Positions 1,373 through 9,136 of a DNA stretch of 36,421 nt are shown in pieces. Location: positions 1-36,421 of IMG/VR virus record IMGVR_UViG_3300047550_003227; one strand, 5' to 3'. The first letter of the stretch is position 1, and each line of letters starts with the position of its first letter. A program made the position numbers and the translations under genes. The notes under the pieces were generated by a model that made no database searches, had not been told where the DNA came from, and saw only the letters and a list, made by a program, of their open reading frames with translations. This DNA comes from a virus.

Positions 1373-2194
1373 TTATTTTTTTGGCGAGCTGTCATCCGCA
1401 CCTTCGCTCACACTGTAATAGACTCGAGCTGGCCCTCGAGCACCTGGGACGCGTTCATCCAGCTCCTGCCGCCTGACGCTGAGCGTGCCGGCCTCGACCA
1501 TTCGCGCCAACCAGACCCTGACCCGCTCGCGATCCTGACCAAGCGCCTGCGCAATCGTGTCCAGCTCCGTGAGTCCCTGCGTCTCGATGGCATAGACGAT
1601 CCGGTCGGCCACGGTCTGCTCGGGGATCTCCAGAGCGTATTGGATCTCCTCGAGAGCGTAGAGGATCGCCGGAGCGGTGACGGCCGCCACGCGGATCAGC
1701 TCTCGCCCGGCCTGTTGGTACCTGTGCCAGGCTTCGATCACGGCGGGATTGTCGGCAATGGCGGGTAGGGAAGTGGTGATGGGCGGGGTCTGCTTGTCGG
1801 CGATGAGTCGCTTGACGTCGCGCACCGAGAGGCTGTTTTCCGCCGCGGCCTCGAGCACCTCGAGGGGCTGATCGGCTGAAGACGCTACAACATAATGACT
1901 GAATTGCAGGTTGGGCGGACGTGCGCCGAATTCCTGAGCCAGGGTATAGACCGCTCGATACTCGTACACCCGCCGAGGATGCACGCCCACAGATGCGGCG
2001 AACTGCTCCACGCTCTTCTCGCCATAGTGAGTCACCACGCTGGCACAGATTGCCGCCTGTCGCCATCTCTGCTCTGTGGCAGCCGTTTCCGCATCCAGCC
2101 ACGCCTGAACGTGATCTTCCCACGCGCTCGAGGTAAAAACGGGCAGCTCGTTGAGCCGCCCATATCCACCCACAATCAATTGCTCGTCTGCCAT
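1373..2194 (-). CDS. DNA-binding protein with two HTH regions (ParB/KorB-like middle)
   Basis: 273 residues starting MADEQLIVGG; AGGAGAG lies six bases upstream of this ATG. Residues about 60-85 (SVEQFAASVGVHPRRVYEYR) form a helix-turn-helix. The following segment (LQFSHYVVASS, then SVRDVKRLIAD at about 122-132) resembles the region after the HTH in ParB/KorB-like proteins. A second, winged-helix-like segment lies at about 208-245 (ELDTIAQALGQDRERVRVWL). There is no ParA partner or CTPase motif that I can see. The gene is last in its operon before a terminator and lies directly beside a cluster of CCACNNGTGG palindromes, two of which are just upstream of its start. It is a good candidate for the protein binding them, as autoregulator or partition/replication factor; this is inference. 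Confidence 0.7.
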   Translation of the reverse strand: MADEQLIVGGYGRLNELPVFTSSAWEDHVQAWLDAETAATEQRWRQAAICASVVTHYGEKSVEQFAASVGVHPRRVYEYRAVYTLAQEFGARPPNLQFSHYVVASSADQPLEVLEAAAENSLSVRDVKRLIADKQTPPITTSLPAIADNPAVIEAWHRYQQAGRELIRVAAVTAPAILYALEEIQYALEIPEQTVADRIVYAIETQGLTELDTIAQALGQDRERVRVWLARMVEAGTLSVRRQELDERVPGARGPARVYYSVSEGADDSSPKK

Positions 2195-2195
2195 A

Positions 2196-2429
2196 TTACT
2201 CTCCTGTGGCAATTGCCATCTGTGGCAAATTGCTCCACGTGTGGGAGTCGACCCCTGCCACACGGATGATTGACTCGAGCAGTGCCACCAGTGCCAGGTT
2301 CTTGCCGTCTATGGCAAGCTGACGGCATTCGTAGAGCGCAGCGGGGATCTCCCACACGTGGCTGATCGGTTCAAATGGTTTCCTGCTGCTTAGTGAATTC
2401 TGCGATGACTTGTTGCTTGAAGTTGCCAT
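2196..2429 (-). CDS. Small protein of unknown function
   Basis: 77 residues, ATG start with GGAGGA about eleven bases upstream. Its first 59 bases overlap the end of the preceding gene in another frame, and it stops one base before the DNA-binding protein start. The N-terminus is Ser/Asn-rich and likely disordered; the middle is a helix (PAALYECRQLAIDGKNLALVALLESIIRVAG). Two CCACNNGTGG sites lie inside the gene. I do not recognise the family. Confidence 0.55.
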   Translation of the reverse strand: MATSSNKSSQNSLSSRKPFEPISHVWEIPAALYECRQLAIDGKNLALVALLESIIRVAGVDSHTWSNLPQMAIATGE

Positions 2430-4780: not shown

Positions 4781-5638
4781 CTACAGATTTCTGACTCGTT
4801 TAAGATCTGTCCTGTAACAGGCCTTGCTGCAATAGTGGAATTTATTCTTGGCCAGACTGGCTGGCCGAGTGAACTCTACCCCGCATTTTTCGCACTTGCA
4901 AGAAATTCTTGTCTGCTCGGAAATTGTGGTCATACGATACTGAGCCGAACAAGACGACGTGCAAAAGATCTTCCGCCCGTGCTTGATGTTCGATTTGATG
5001 TCTGCAAGTGCCCTCTGAAACACCTTGCCGCACTGCTCACAAGTTGCCGTGGTCATTGTGCGGACTCGATGCTCGGCGAATTGCCGTAGACGCTTCTCGC
5101 GCCGCTTCGCTTCGATTGAGTCCTCGGTCATACGGTCATACTGCTCGAACGTGTATGAATGTTGATTGTTCTTGTCGGCCAGGTATGGCCCCGCCGACTG
5201 CCTCAGCTCCCATTCACGCCACGCGATCTCGGGGAATTTCGTCACCTTTCCGAGGGTCTGCGTTTTGATGCGGGTCAGATACATCCGATCGGCGAACATC
5301 AGGCCCATCAGATACACCTCCCAGCCGCCGATAAGAAATAGCTCGGACTCCCCGGCTTGCTCCGCATACTCGATCGCCGAGAAGATTGACCGGTGGTGAA
5401 TCACGTGATCAGGCAATTCACGAGCAAACTGATCAGTCGAGGACAAGACGATCATTTTCCGGTCTGGCAAGATGCGAGGCCGGGGGAGGCTTTCATAGGT
5501 GCGCCGCCCCATTACCACATGGTGACCGCTGGTCAGCTGCTTGAACCGTCGCAAGTCGGCCTGCTGGCGCCAGGGTATCCCGTTGTTTTGGCCGATTGTG
5601 CCCCGGTCATCGAGGGCGGCAATAATCGAAACGATCAT
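4781..5638 (-). CDS. Dihydrofolate reductase fused to two zinc-finger modules
   Basis: 285 residues from MIVSIIAALDD; GGAGGATCTT precedes this ATG, which overlaps the upstream stop as ATGA. Residues 1-about 168 are a canonical DHFR that reduces dihydrofolate with NADPH: IGQNNGIPW (15-23), active-site acid Asp28, VVMGRRTYESLP (42-52), IGG (103-105) and KFPE. After a charged helix (about 170-192) come two Cys4 modules: C200-x2-C203-x22-C226-x3-C230 and C249-x2-C252-x17-C270-x3-C274. The frame is open throughout, so this reads as one protein, although internal ATGs at about residues 170 and 195 could give a separate zinc-finger product. Phage DHFRs normally end after about 160-170 residues. The zinc fingers may tether the enzyme to nucleic acid or partners. 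Confidence 0.9.
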   Translation of the reverse strand: MIVSIIAALDDRGTIGQNNGIPWRQQADLRRFKQLTSGHHVVMGRRTYESLPRPRILPDRKMIVLSSTDQFARELPDHVIHHRSIFSAIEYAEQAGESELFLIGGWEVYLMGLMFADRMYLTRIKTQTLGKVTKFPEIAWREWELRQSAGPYLADKNNQHSYTFEQYDRMTEDSIEAKRREKRLRQFAEHRVRTMTTATCEQCGKVFQRALADIKSNIKHGRKIFCTSSCSAQYRMTTISEQTRISCKCEKCGVEFTRPASLAKNKFHYCSKACYRTDLKRVRNL

Positions 5639-5940
5639 AAGATCCTCCAATCCTTGCGCCATTTCTTGACCAGCTCCTGCGCCTCTCCGACTGTCTTGAC
5701 CACGTTGACTGCGCCACGCCAGTTGGCGTGCCATTCAAGCTCGTCGTCTGTCAGCCGCTGCTTGCTGGGAATCTGCTGCCAGTCCTTGACCTCGACAAGG
5801 TGATTATGGCCCAGCAGGCCCACCACGAGATCAGGGAAGCCTTGGCCCAGGGTATGCGTACAATGCACGGTGCATCCCATTGCGCGGAATGCTTCAACGA
5901 TCTCCGCCTGATTCCTGTCGACTTTCGCTGCTCTTCTCAC
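5635..5940 (-). CDS. PD-(D/E)XK nuclease of VRR-NUC/resolvase type
   Basis: 101 residues from a GTG start; GGAGGGC lies six bases upstream, whereas the ATG six codons earlier has no ribosome site. The fold signature is plain: Glu13 in the first helix, GFPDLVVG with Asp37, and VEVKD with Glu50 and Lys52. This is the minimal nuclease core of VRR-NUC and Hjc-like enzymes. It should be a metal-dependent nuclease acting on branched or broken DNA, perhaps a Holliday-junction resolvase serving recombination before packaging. Its 5' end overlaps the 108-residue gene by 47 bases and its 3' end overlaps DHFR by four. Confidence 0.8.
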   Translation of the reverse strand: MRRAAKVDRNQAEIVEAFRAMGCTVHCTHTLGQGFPDLVVGLLGHNHLVEVKDWQQIPSKQRLTDDELEWHANWRGAVNVVKTVGEAQELVKKWRKDWRIL

Positions 5941-6220: not shown

Positions 6221-6840
6221 TACGCCACCCCCTTGTTCCGGCAGAATCCGCACCGGCAGCGGGGCGACTCGTTGGCCGAGGGTGGCACCCACTGGCCGCG
6301 ATCGTTTTTCTCCCAGTGCGACCGCACCAGATTTGGCCCCCGCTGGCTGATCGGCGTCGCATTGCAGTGGCAAGCGTAGACTGGGTAATACCAGTCATTT
6401 CCGGTCGGGCAGTAGGTGGCAATCGGCGCGTAGCCGGTGTCTTCGCAGTGATAGCAGGCCAGGGTGCCGTCAGCGCGTCGAGTGTTCCCATATTGCTGAC
6501 GTGCGCGATTGTCGCGATCCTCGACCAGCAGAGCCTTGTAGCCGTTGATAATCGCTGGCACCGGGAAGGGGCGCGACCAGTCGTGATCTTTGACCGCCCT
6601 GTCCCACGATGCCCCGAGAAACTGGTCAGGGATCTCGGCCAGCAGGTTGGCCCAGGTTGTGACGGCAAGCCGCAATTCCTCACCCGCGGAAAGCGGGAGG
6701 GAGCTCAAAGATCGGGTTTTCTGAATCAGAGCCGCCATCGCGGCCAGTCTGTCCGGTGAGCTGCTCGATGAGCTCGCGTGTCTCTCGTGCTGCCCGTTCG
6801 TTGTGCGATTCGCGGCGATTGTTGTGTTGATGCTGTCCAT
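6220..6840 (-). CDS. Putative helicase loader/inhibitor with zinc-binding C-terminus
   Basis: 206 residues; AAGGAGAG seven bases before the ATG supports this start, although it lies 160 bases inside the previous gene. Residues 1-45 are Ser-rich and likely disordered. Residues about 52-105 (ELRLAVTTWANLLAEIPDQFLGASWDRA, then FPVPAIINGYKAL) resemble the helical domain of phage helicase loaders of the G39P/lambda-P functional class. The C-terminal half has eight Cys (129, 132, 144, 157, 159, 195, 197, 200) able to bind one or two zinc ions. Following a replication initiator-like gene is the normal place for a loader. Assignment rests on pattern and position. Confidence 0.6.
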   Translation of the reverse strand: MDSINTTIAANRTTNGQHERHASSSSSSPDRLAAMAALIQKTRSLSSLPLSAGEELRLAVTTWANLLAEIPDQFLGASWDRAVKDHDWSRPFPVPAIINGYKALLVEDRDNRARQQYGNTRRADGTLACYHCEDTGYAPIATYCPTGNDWYYPVYACHCNATPISQRGPNLVRSHWEKNDRGQWVPPSANESPRCRCGFCRNKGVA

Positions 6841-7576
6841 TCGTTCTCTCCTTACTGTGCTGAGTTTCGGCCTTGTAATATGAGTCGATCAATCCTTTGA
6901 CGTTGCGCGGCGAGTACCGGTTATCCCGCCAGTCCTCGCAGCATTTCCGCCAGATGGTGAGGTGCTGAATCCCGGCATTGTCTACCAGCTCCTGCTGCCA
7001 GATCCCGAGTTGCGGAAAGTATTCCCGAGCAATCTGGCCAGCCGATCCACCAGCAGGGGGGAGGGGTCTTGCTGGTTTCGCGTCTGTCGGGATCACCGCG
7101 ACCGCTCCCCCTCTATGTGTAGTCTCTGGAGTAATCTCTGTTGTAGTCTCTGTTATTAATGCTTGCCCGATTCGGGCTATCTTGTTTGCCCCATTCGTGC
7201 ATTCCAGTATGTCACTTTCGGGCATACTGGTTTGACCGGTTGGTGCATCCTTGGTTGCCAATAGCAGAGCTTCCAGAGCTTCAAGGTCGATTTTGTAAAA
7301 GAGCTTTGCCGGGACTCCCCGCAGTTGTTCGTGCCAGACTGAGCCGTTGCCCAGCTCCTTGAGTCGCCGTCGAGCTGTTTCCTGCTCTTTGCGGGAAAGC
7401 ATCGTCTCTTCGAACCACTCATCCTGCGTCTTCCAGAACCATCCCTCAGGATCTTTGGCCCGTGGCGTCCAATAAAGAGCCTGACTCAGCATCAGACCAG
7501 CCGTAACAGAGCCGGTCAGCTCGGCCAGGCATCGGTGAAACGCTATGGGACGACTCAAAATCTTGAGTAGTTTCAT
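6680..7576 (-). CDS. Replication initiator-like protein (winged HTH plus DnaD-like C-terminus)
   Basis: 298 residues from MKLLKILSRPIAFHR; GAGGTGACA lies just before this ATG. Residues about 10-95 match the winged-helix N-terminus common in phage replisome organisers (ALYWTPRAKDPEGWFWKTQDEWF, SRKEQETARRRLKELG). Residues 110-185 are a linker. Residues about 205-240 (TIWRKCCEDWRDNRYSPRNVKGLIDSYYK) resemble the DnaD-like partner-binding helix. It likely binds the phage origin and recruits the loader and host helicase. The last 53 residues are Gln/Arg/Asn-rich and are encoded in DNA that also encodes the N-terminus of the next protein. Expression should depend on the attenuator-like leader at 7586-7696. 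Confidence 0.75.
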   Translation of the reverse strand: MKLLKILSRPIAFHRCLAELTGSVTAGLMLSQALYWTPRAKDPEGWFWKTQDEWFEETMLSRKEQETARRRLKELGNGSVWHEQLRGVPAKLFYKIDLEALEALLLATKDAPTGQTSMPESDILECTNGANKIARIGQALITETTTEITPETTHRGGAVAVIPTDAKPARPLPPAGGSAGQIAREYFPQLGIWQQELVDNAGIQHLTIWRKCCEDWRDNRYSPRNVKGLIDSYYKAETQHSKERTNGQHQHNNRRESHNERAARETRELIEQLTGQTGRDGGSDSENPIFELPPAFRG

Positions 7577-7585
7577 TGTCACCTC

Positions 7586-7696
7586 AAAAAACAAAAAGCC
7601 CTCAGTGAAAACGGGCAGGTGATAAGCGCGTGGAAGTTGACGACTTCCGGTGCCTGACCCGCCTTCACTGAAGGCTCATTACTGGTTGCGCTTATC
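7586..7696 (-). promoter_or_regulatory. Attenuator-like leader of the replication operon
   Basis: The leftward leader (about 157 nt from the predicted start near 7734) can fold in two exclusive ways. Terminator form: the reverse of 7653-7676 pairs with the reverse of 7597-7619, giving about 23 bp with one bulge and two G-U pairs, followed by UUUUUGUUUUUU (7586-7597). Anti-terminator form: GATAAGCGC (reverse of 7688-7696) pairs with GCGCTTATC (reverse of 7621-7629), enclosing hairpins at 7661-7675 and 7632-7648. The second form uses the 5' arm of the terminator. The Shine-Dalgarno of the replication gene follows the U-run directly. Confidence 0.75.
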
Positions 7697-7740
7697 TTTT
7701 GCGGCTGTCTAGCGGGGCGTCACTCCCGACCGCACTACTG

Positions 7741-7768
7741 ATTATAGGCAGATTAGATTATTTGTCAA
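7741..7768 (-). promoter_or_regulatory. Leftward promoter of the replication operon
   Basis: On the minus strand TTGACA (reverse of 7763-7768), a 16-bp spacer and a perfect TATAAT (reverse of 7741-7746). Predicted start near 7734. The bases TTGACAAATAAT at the -35 also occur in both rightward promoters at 8697 and 10846. Confidence 0.8.
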
Positions 7769-7775
7769 TTGGAAA

Positions 7776-7919
7776 CTATCGGCGCAGTCGAATATACCGG
7801 GTGGGCCGCTCCTCGGGCCGCTCCAGCTCGATCCGCGTGGGCCTGCCCTCCAGCTCCGCCAGGACTGGCCGCGCTGACAGCCGGTTGATCTCCATCATCA
7901 ACATCAAGATCCATTCCAT
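7776..7919 (-). CDS. 47-residue basic protein
   Basis: A short gene starting MEWILMLMMEINRLSARP and ending RYIRLRR; ATG is the reverse of 7917-7919 and TAG the reverse of 7776-7778. GAGGTGAT stands four bases before the ATG, nearly the same ribosome site as the replication gene. The N-terminal 12 residues are hydrophobic with four Met; the remainder is Arg/Glu-rich (12 Arg), probably one amphipathic helix. It lies between a terminator and the replication promoter, so it would be made only by read-through. The family is unknown. The good ribosome site is the main support. Confidence 0.55.
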   Translation of the reverse strand: MEWILMLMMEINRLSARPVLAELEGRPTRIELERPEERPTRYIRLRR

Positions 7920-7930
7920 CGCATCACCTC

Positions 7931-7957
7931 AAAAAAATGGGGGGCAACCCGCCCCCC
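7931..7957 (-). terminator. Strong intrinsic terminator
   Basis: The leftward RNA has GGGGGGC, a five-base loop and GCCCCCC, then A and seven U. It marks the 3' end of the structured RNA island upstream. As at 1286 and 7586, a ribosome site (GAGGTGAT) follows directly. Confidence 0.9.
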
Positions 7958-7986
7958 GTATCAAACACACCTTTTTCCCTTACAAC

Positions 7987-8403
7987 CCCTGACGCTTGTC
8001 AGGGAACTTGGCGTGGGCGAGGTACGAATCCACCATTCGCACCTCAGAACCGCTGCTCCTACGGCTGCCCACAGAATGGGACGAGACGGAATTGAACCGT
8101 CTACGGGTACGGCTTGGCCAGTTGCTCAATACCGCAGTCGCACCACGACTCGTCCCTAGTGGTAAGTGGGGGAGGTGCGAGCGTTGCCCTCCCCCTCTCG
8201 ACCGGCATCGCCCCGGTCGAGGATCCCGACGATTCGCCGCCGTTAGGCCAGCTCGACGAGGCGGGCAGCCCGTCGCCGTCGGTGTCTCATTTGCCCGTCC
8301 CAGGATCGCTGGAGTTGTGCAGGAGCCCCCTCTCTGCGTTGGTGCGCTCCTCTGCATCAGTTCTTAGCCGCGCGCACCTGCCGAAAAAGACCATACGGGC
8401 AAA
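7987..8403 (-). ncRNA. Candidate large structured non-coding RNA
   Basis: This 417-nt stretch has no convincing gene but carries back-to-back helices: 8290-8298 with 8395-8403 (9 bp) enclosing 8341-8347 with 8372-8378 (7 bp); 8254-8258 with 8271-8275; 8197-8205 with 8213-8221 (9 bp); 8168-8175 with 8188-8195 (8 bp); a cloverleaf at 8078-8156; a three-way junction at 8013-8072; and a 7-bp hairpin at 7987-8004. Non-Watson-Crick pairs in the cloverleaf and three-way junction are G-U on the leftward RNA but A-C on the other strand, so the leftward RNA is the likely product. It starts one base after the HTH regulator's stop and ends at the terminator 7931-7957, so it could be processed from that transcript. 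Open frames here are Arg/Ser-rich on both strands and look like chance. I match it to no known RNA family. Confidence 0.6.
8078..8156 (-). ncRNA. tRNA-like cloverleaf within the structured RNA
   Basis: On the leftward RNA: a 7-bp acceptor-like stem (GGGACGA with TCGTCCC), a 4-bp arm with a 5-base loop, a 7-bp arm with one bulge and a 20-base loop, and a 5-bp arm GACGG/CCGTC with the T-loop-like sequence TTCAATT. The T-like arm abuts the acceptor exactly as in tRNA, and a discriminator-like A follows. There are no linker bases between any of the four helices. U8, a normal D arm and an anticodon stem-loop are missing, so it is not a canonical tRNA. Confidence 0.55.
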
Positions 8404-8404
8404 A

Positions 8405-8623
8405 TCAAATATCGTTGGATGAAGCCTGCTCAACCTGGGGACGTGGGCCGGGGTTTGGCCGCTGAACCGCCTCCGCATCAGCGCGAGCAATAAACACCTG
8501 CTTGCGCTTGCCCCCGCCCAGTCGCTGCGCCGGGAGCCAGCCACGCCGCACCCAGCACAACACCGCCTGACGGGTCACCCCGTGCAATTCCGCCACTTCG
8601 GTTGTAGTCAGCAATTCATTCAT
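8405..8623 (-). CDS. Excisionase/MerR-type HTH regulator, probably leaderless
   Basis: 72 residues. Residues 1-55 are the HTH_17/excisionase-like winged helix: LLTTTEVAELHGVTRQAVLCWVRRGWLPAQRLGGG and KQVFIARADAEAV. The C-terminus is Pro/Gln-rich. The predicted start of transcription (about 8625) coincides with the ATG at 8623, and no Shine-Dalgarno exists, so the mRNA is probably leaderless as for lambda cI. It is divergent from the rightward early operon and flanks the shared -35 blocks, so it is the natural candidate for the switch regulator or repressor. No integrase is present, so an excisionase role proper is unlikely. Confidence 0.75.
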   Translation of the reverse strand: MNELLTTTEVAELHGVTRQAVLCWVRRGWLPAQRLGGGKRKQVFIARADAEAVQRPNPGPRPQVEQASSNDI

Positions 8624-8631
8624 CGAGGCGG

Positions 8632-8661
8632 AGCATAGCGCGACAAGGAAAGAATTGTCAA
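8632..8661 (-). promoter_or_regulatory. Leftward promoter of the HTH regulator
   Basis: TTGACA (reverse of 8656-8661), 18-bp spacer, TATGCT (reverse of 8632-8637). Only eight bases separate the -10 from the ATG, predicting a leaderless transcript. The sequence around the -35 (ATTTTCCTGTTGACAA) nearly matches that of both rightward promoters. Confidence 0.7.
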
Positions 8662-8696
8662 CAGGAAAATAATTTGAGTGGAGAGATATTTTCTTG

Positions 8697-8725
8697 TTGA
8701 CAAATAATTCCAGTGAGGATAGTAT
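8697..8725 (+). promoter_or_regulatory. Rightward early promoter
   Basis: TTGACA at 8697-8702, a 17-bp spacer and TAGTAT at 8720-8725; start near 8732. The 23 bases 8686-8708, covering the -35, recur exactly at 10835-10857. The promoter is back-to-back with the HTH regulator promoter. Confidence 0.8.
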
Positions 8726-8779
8726 CACACCATCGAAGCGGCAATGACGCCGCCGACATCGCAAACAAGGAGAATGACA

Positions 8780-9136
8780 ATGACACCAGAAATGCTTGCT
8801 AACGAAACAATGGCACACACAGCCGCCGAGGCTACTATTGAGCAGTTGCGCAGCTGCGAGGCGCTGCTTAAGGCTGGCGCGAAGTTTGAGATCGATCGTC
8901 GTCACGTGCCGCACATTCAGATTGATGGCCAGTGGCAGACCGATGAAACGACCGGCTCACAGGTAGTCGTTCGCCTGCGCTGCTCTCGCACGGGAGCGTG
9001 GGCGATTCGCACCATCGAGCAGCCGCTCACGGCCAAGCAGGCCAAGGTTGTGGCTAAAGAATTGATCGCGGAGTTTCGCGATCGCATCAAAAGCGTCAAG
9101 CTCACACGTTCAGTCGAGCGCACCAATCGCTACTAA
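8780..9136 (+). CDS. First rightward early protein, unknown function
   Basis: 118 residues. AAGGAG precedes two close ATGs; the one at 8780 has proper spacing (seven bases). The protein has a helical N-terminal third (AEATIEQLRSCEALLKAG), a likely beta segment (HIQIDGQWQTDE...SQVVVRLRCSRTGAWAIRTI) and a basic C-terminal helix (KQAKVVAKELIAEFRDRIKSVKL). No enzymatic motif is visible. As the first gene after the strong rightward promoter it should be expressed immediately after infection. Confidence 0.7.
   Translation: MTPEMLANETMAHTAAEATIEQLRSCEALLKAGAKFEIDRRHVPHIQIDGQWQTDETTGSQVVVRLRCSRTGAWAIRTIEQPLTAKQAKVVAKELIAEFRDRIKSVKLTRSVERTNRY

Follow-up and report, generated by a model that had tools for sequence, protein, structure and literature searches.

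What does a phage encode in the ~470 nucleotides between the stop codon of an HTH gene and the terminator that follows it, where an earlier note had described back-to-back RNA helices, and what could the product do? The window, meaning the whole 36,421-base stretch analysed here, is a metagenomic tailed-phage record in which the portal, capsid, and terminase genes recognized by Pfam profiles are all on the leftward strand; it also codes for a dCTP deaminase, and its rightward block includes a Gp157/Gam-like gene. Relatives of the terminase and of the replication protein in named phages all share <60% identity with them. The order read from the sequence is HTH gene, RNA array, terminator, 47-aa gene, promoter, a second RNA (RNA2), and replication gene (Table 1). 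The 72-aa HTH protein matched Pfam HTH_17 (31.6 bits, cutoff 27) and PHROG excisionase and regulator profiles (3.6e-08), while homologues of the 47-aa protein, with the pattern xxPTRIELxRPxxRPTRxxRxxR, occupy the same position in the related loci L020, L021, L029, and L030. Elsewhere in the window, a 317-aa frame (4781–5734, minus) matches dihydrofolate reductase at residues 26–226 and HNH endonuclease profiles at 203–313, and is either a fusion or a joined frame; the frame at 1373–2263 (minus) weakly matches a Ren-like exclusion protein (phrog_142, E 0.0067).

Table 1. Position of the RNA modules, neighbouring genes, and signals, numbered from the first base of the window.
Feature	Position	Strand	Details
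Source record			IMG/VR virus IMGVR_UViG_3300047550_003227, 36,421 bases; tailed phage from metagenome
Sigma-70-like promoter TTGACA-18-TATGCT	8632–8661	–	Consensus match only; also in L002
HTH_17/excisionase-like protein, 72 aa	8405–8623	–	Stop codon immediately before the RNA
Module B	8290–8403	–	9-bp closing stem 8395–8403 / 8290–8298
Module B, inner parts		–	AUGGUCUUUUU follows 5' arm; hairpin CCAG-CGAUC-CUGG (8300–8312) precedes 3' arm
Module A	8160–8282	–	P1 with two inner hairpins (8226–8282; loop CCUAACGG)
Module A, rest		–	P4 hairpin 8197–8221; P5 hairpin 8168–8195; tail ACUUACCA 8160–8167
tRNA-like element	8077–8156	–	Acceptor stem of 7 bp, D-like stem, A as discriminator, CCA not encoded
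Module C, three-way junction GUGGGC/GCCCAC	8013–8072	–	11-bp arm GAGGUGCGAAU/AUUCGUACCUC
Last hairpin CCCUGAC/GUCAGGG	7987–8004	–	100% paired, one both-side change
Intrinsic terminator GGGGGGC/GCCCCCC + 7 U	7931–7957	–	One both-side pair change, in L010
Conserved small protein, 47 aa	7776–7919	–	MEWILMLMMEINRL...PTRIELERPEERPTRYIRLRR; directly after terminator
Sigma-70-like promoter TTGACA-16-TATAAT	7741–7768	–	Before RNA2; 12/12 consensus bases
RNA2, second structured RNA	7587–7737	–	Between promoter and replication gene, just upstream of the latter
RNA2, P0 and pseudoknot		–	P0 hairpin loop AGUGACGC; pseudoknot H1 7688–7696 with 7621–7629
RNA2, long stem and 3' part		–	H2+H3 7653–7676 with 7597–7619; H4 hairpin loop CGUCA; U run
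O-like replication-initiation gene	6680–7594		Found by PHROG profile search

The leftward product of 7931–8403 is almost certainly a real, structured RNA. Read leftward, 7925–8420 folds at –227.5 kcal/mol (z –4.8), a value reached by none of 100 shuffles, and the rightward fold is weaker (–206.1 kcal/mol, z –4.0); the homologous stretches of L002 and L010 fold with z –5.0 and –3.7. In an alignment of these three sequences (window, L002, and L010), 15 helices comprising 102 pairs were drawn; 97.9% of their cells are paired, a value biased upward because the helices were taken from the window, and 11 pairs carry changes on both sides. When the partners were shifted by 1–3 columns, 41–53% of the cells remained paired and 0–1 both-side changes were counted; the covariation bears out the helices of the earlier note. 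With only three sequences, one of which had supplied the helices, more weight was given to the both-side count, which is less affected by this bias, than to the pairing percentage. Three of the 11 changes are in P4 of module A and three in the 11-bp arm of module C, which is 100% paired in all three sequences, with one each in B-P2, the GAUC hairpin, P5, the last hairpin, and the terminator. Helices, HTH stop (8405), and terminator (7957–7931, leftward) lie where they had been placed from the sequence, and the polarity also holds: read leftward, the drawn pairs include 9 G-U and 4 A-C across the three sequences, and the T arm of the tRNA-like element, the T run of the terminator, and the HTH gene all point in this direction.

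Open frames of 102–125 aa exist on both strands of the region and could be taken for small hidden genes, a prospect that is close to negligible. The relatives differ by 1- and 2-nt indels that break the frames, substitutions fall evenly over codon positions, open-frame lengths are not kept, and neither Pfam nor PHROG gave a match in the region. Coding frames on both strands were ruled out by the indels and the even substitutions, in agreement with the earlier view that no credible gene is present.

Whether the helices form one body is a separate matter. They had been taken for a single contiguous large RNA held by an outer stem; that stem, however, closes only module B (114 nt), and in relatives the modules are re-ordered, doubled, or missing. 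We therefore describe 7931–8403 as a putative non-coding RNA of separately folding modules, their boundaries defined by stems, that ends at the terminator.

Module B was recovered in 14 copies, 13 of them in relatives, with two each in L003, L005, and L017. Owing to the lengths of the linkers, MAFFT does not align the closing stems in register, and a swapped-arm test stands in for a covariance model of B. Own arms pair over 8–12 bp in 13 of the 14 copies, with six contiguous pairs in L013b, whereas arms swapped among copies mostly pair over 2–5 bp and reach at least 8 bp in 6/176. UCUUU is retained behind the 5' arm, with UUCUC in a single copy, and GAUC sits in the hairpin loop (NGAUC) of 12 copies on varied stems, two copies having a non-palindromic loop. 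A scan of viral contigs with GCGGWGATCCCGCRACC returned 26 stretches, among which a recognisable B element occurred only in phages already known. The retained palindrome could mean that the modules multimerise, for example through this loop, into a particle like those of GOLLD, ROOL, and OLE, as symmetric kissing loops of OLE and GOLLD use palindromes that include GAUC. Those loops switch between palindromes, e.g., GGCC and GAUC (PMC12286853), whereas that of B is near-constant with no such switching, some loops are not palindromic at all, and the total size is about half that of GOLLD; such self-assembly appears improbable.

For module A, the register-free comparison of own and swapped arms of the closing stem separated poorly, so its support comes from the three-sequence count given above and from stems seen by eye in a fixed place, namely TCCGACGA/TCGTCGGA in L003, TCCGGCAG/CTGCCGGA in L006, and CCGGCAC/GTGCCGG in L017. 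The loop CUAAC within this closing stem is kept in the diverged copies of L003, L005, L006, L017, and L019.

Relatives were found via the replication protein, and L010 via a short module A pattern; the viral collections were searched by replication-protein relatives and four DNA patterns, a scope that distant members with other neighbours would escape. Searches with the HTH protein and with the 8744–9136 protein gave no relatives, and a DNA similarity search of phage and plasmid collections gave no match. L002 matches the window at 84–90% over the entire gap except for the tRNA-like cloverleaf, and L010 is more diverged. Read from sequence, the order is B-A-tRNA-like-C in the window, B-A-C in L002 and L010, B-A-B in L003, A-B-B in L005 and L017, A-B-tRNA-like in L006, and A-B-tRNA-like twice in L019. 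Related phages retain an array of this kind in the same position, with modules lost, gained, doubled, or re-ordered. RNA2 occurs in 14 other IMG/VR records, and the RNA family seems restricted in distribution.

The cloverleaf of the earlier note is present, with a T arm GACGG-UUCAAUU-CCGUC and a fold z of –3.6, but it is no integral part of the structure: it is a clean 81-nt insert in the window, absent from L002 and L010, the two closest relatives. Its middle ('anticodon') arm is a long interrupted hairpin, elongated and branched, and a decoding role is unlikely because there is no 7-nt anticodon loop. Against the Rfam tRNA clan, the block (8078–8156) scored best with tRNA-Sec at 20.3 bits, under the cutoff of 47. 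The blocks of L020, which is the same phage as L006, and of L024 pass the tRNA model RF00005 (32.1 and 37.1 bits, cutoff 29) and carry long insertions at the anticodon arm. By eye, L023 and L026 have two blocks each, with an Rfam match for one in L026 only (tRNA-Sec, 18.9 bits, sub-cutoff). ARAGORN called 0 tRNAs in the window and in the 22 phage loci scanned.

RNA2 is, on its covariation, the best-supported RNA of this window. Across 12 sequences, 92.8% of its cells are paired and 17 pairs (57 cells) changed on both sides, compared to at most 6 pairs and 9 cells in slid controls; both-side changes affect 7 of the 9 pseudoknot pairs, and the covariance model R1 scores 156.6 bits in the window. 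Two conserved loops, GUGACG and YGUCA, are mutually complementary, which suggests a loop-loop (kissing) contact. In L015 and L019, RNA2 precedes another gene, the replication gene lying 2.5–2.8 kb further on, and L006 and L008 have two copies each. In L020 the copies lie on the reverse strand at ~4494 and ~7099, the first of the pair of sites and the second being placed ahead of two different genes, the replication gene being one of them, showing that the leader can be duplicated within one genome. On the reverse strand of L024 (~2640–2690 and ~2820–2860), the P0 hairpin with loop GGUGACGC appears twice after a TATAAT-like box, one copy standing without the rest of RNA2 upstream of a tRNA-like block; P0 might be an element of its own, placed where transcripts begin. 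In a loose pattern scan for RNA2 in bacterial genomes, among the matches listed and filtered for flanking stems, the hits were read as chance. The RNA2 model found no match in 400 genomes from the phylum to which an Anaerolineae record belongs, a search that had no positive control and is uninformative on the host.

These features also bear on whether the hairpins act as DNA rather than RNA, as mobile cassettes or as hairpins that serve recombination or replication close to the replication gene. Shuffled modules, one clean insert, and the adjoining replication-initiation gene would suit such a role; however, the excess of G-U over A-C, the polarity of promoter and terminator, tRNA features readable only as RNA of this strand, and a covarying pseudoknot next door in RNA2 make it highly improbable.

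What, then, could the array do? The promoter at 8632–8661 is the probable start of a leftward transcript of HTH gene and RNA. The HTH start codon (8623, minus) lies 8 nt past the –10 box, which would give an almost leaderless mRNA. Our leading reading, held tentatively and at a little under an even chance, is that the array is a trans-acting modular RNA derived from the 3' UTR of the HTH transcript. A single transcript would code for the HTH protein first and carry the RNA as its 3' untranslated part; during infection this part would bind factors of the host or the phage and act in trans, and would not serve as a protein template. What most likely counts in the tRNA-like block is its tRNA shape: RNase P or RNase Z could cleave there and release the modules, the block could lure proteins that bind or cut tRNAs, or both. 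The RNA would be cut at the block or shielded by it. Against a role of the tRNA shape stands the sub-cutoff score of the window block, and cleavage is not essential to the system in L002, L010, L003, L005, and L017, whose arrays have no tRNA-like block.

The position behind the HTH gene also fits a role in cis, in which the helices of a 3' UTR would guard the HTH mRNA against 3' nucleases or adjust how strongly it is expressed, with no partner needed. The RNA starts one base past the HTH stop and ends at the terminator, and the HTH gene is upstream of the array in the relatives read, as a cis-acting element would have it. Stabilisation, on the other hand, requires neither conserved loop letters (UCUUU, NGAUC, and CUAAC) under freely changing stems nor tRNA-like blocks, and we judge the cis role unlikely. 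Among the rivals it is nevertheless the most probable, followed by GAUC-loop assembly and then by the DNA role.

If the trans-acting reading were extended, the locus could represent a phage RNA locus of a new class, in which mobile RNA domains, among them tRNA mimics that lack the anticodon loop, are arrayed as cassettes. Phages would swap these in and out to act in trans against the host or against defences; tRNA-processing enzymes would release them, and GAUC kissing loops might join them. This larger proposal is speculative and rather unlikely as a whole. Large structured phage RNAs of unknown function are a standing puzzle, and here the parts are exchanged between phages, so that the modules could be studied one by one; mimics of tRNA whose anticodon arm is altered would directly test phage use of tRNA shape against tRNA-targeting defences.

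Comparison with known systems places the parts differently. The tRNA-like blocks share with tRNA (RF00005) the acceptor stem and the UUCRA-type T loop, and those of L020 and L024 also score above its cutoff; the blocks differ in the elongated or branched anticodon arm without the 7-nt loop, the lack of an ARAGORN call, and the lack of an encoded CCA. Phages are reported to counter tRNA-cutting defences by tRNAs with anticodon-loop mutations (PMC10264068) or by specific added tRNAs (PMC11555353), and, as these cases are reported, not by loop loss. RNA2 resembles phage early RNA leaders and riboswitch-like pseudoknots in its succession of promoter, compact pseudoknot, U run, ribosome-binding site, and gene, and differs in that Rfam 15, searched up to E 10 across 7550–8800, holds no family that matches it. 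For the array, cmscan of the whole window with Rfam 15 at the gathering score gave 0 matches, in agreement with the earlier note, which had seen no match, and GOLLD, ROOL, and OLE were not among the Rfam matches with E up to 10 at 7550–8800. None of the outcomes that the earlier note had named as refuting it (a conserved protein frame, a lack of covariation, or a significant hit to a known family) was thus observed. The 7931–8403 RNA appears to be neither GOLLD nor ROOL, and no catalogued family matches it as a whole. It is shorter, ~470 nt, than the many GOLLD members that exceed 800 nt (PMC12286853), and its modules change order between phages. The likeness to GOLLD and ROOL drawn in the earlier note does not extend to size or to an Rfam match and holds for the setting of a folded phage RNA with a tRNA-like neighbour: like them, the array is phage-encoded, elaborately folded, and non-coding, here with the tRNA-like block inside it.
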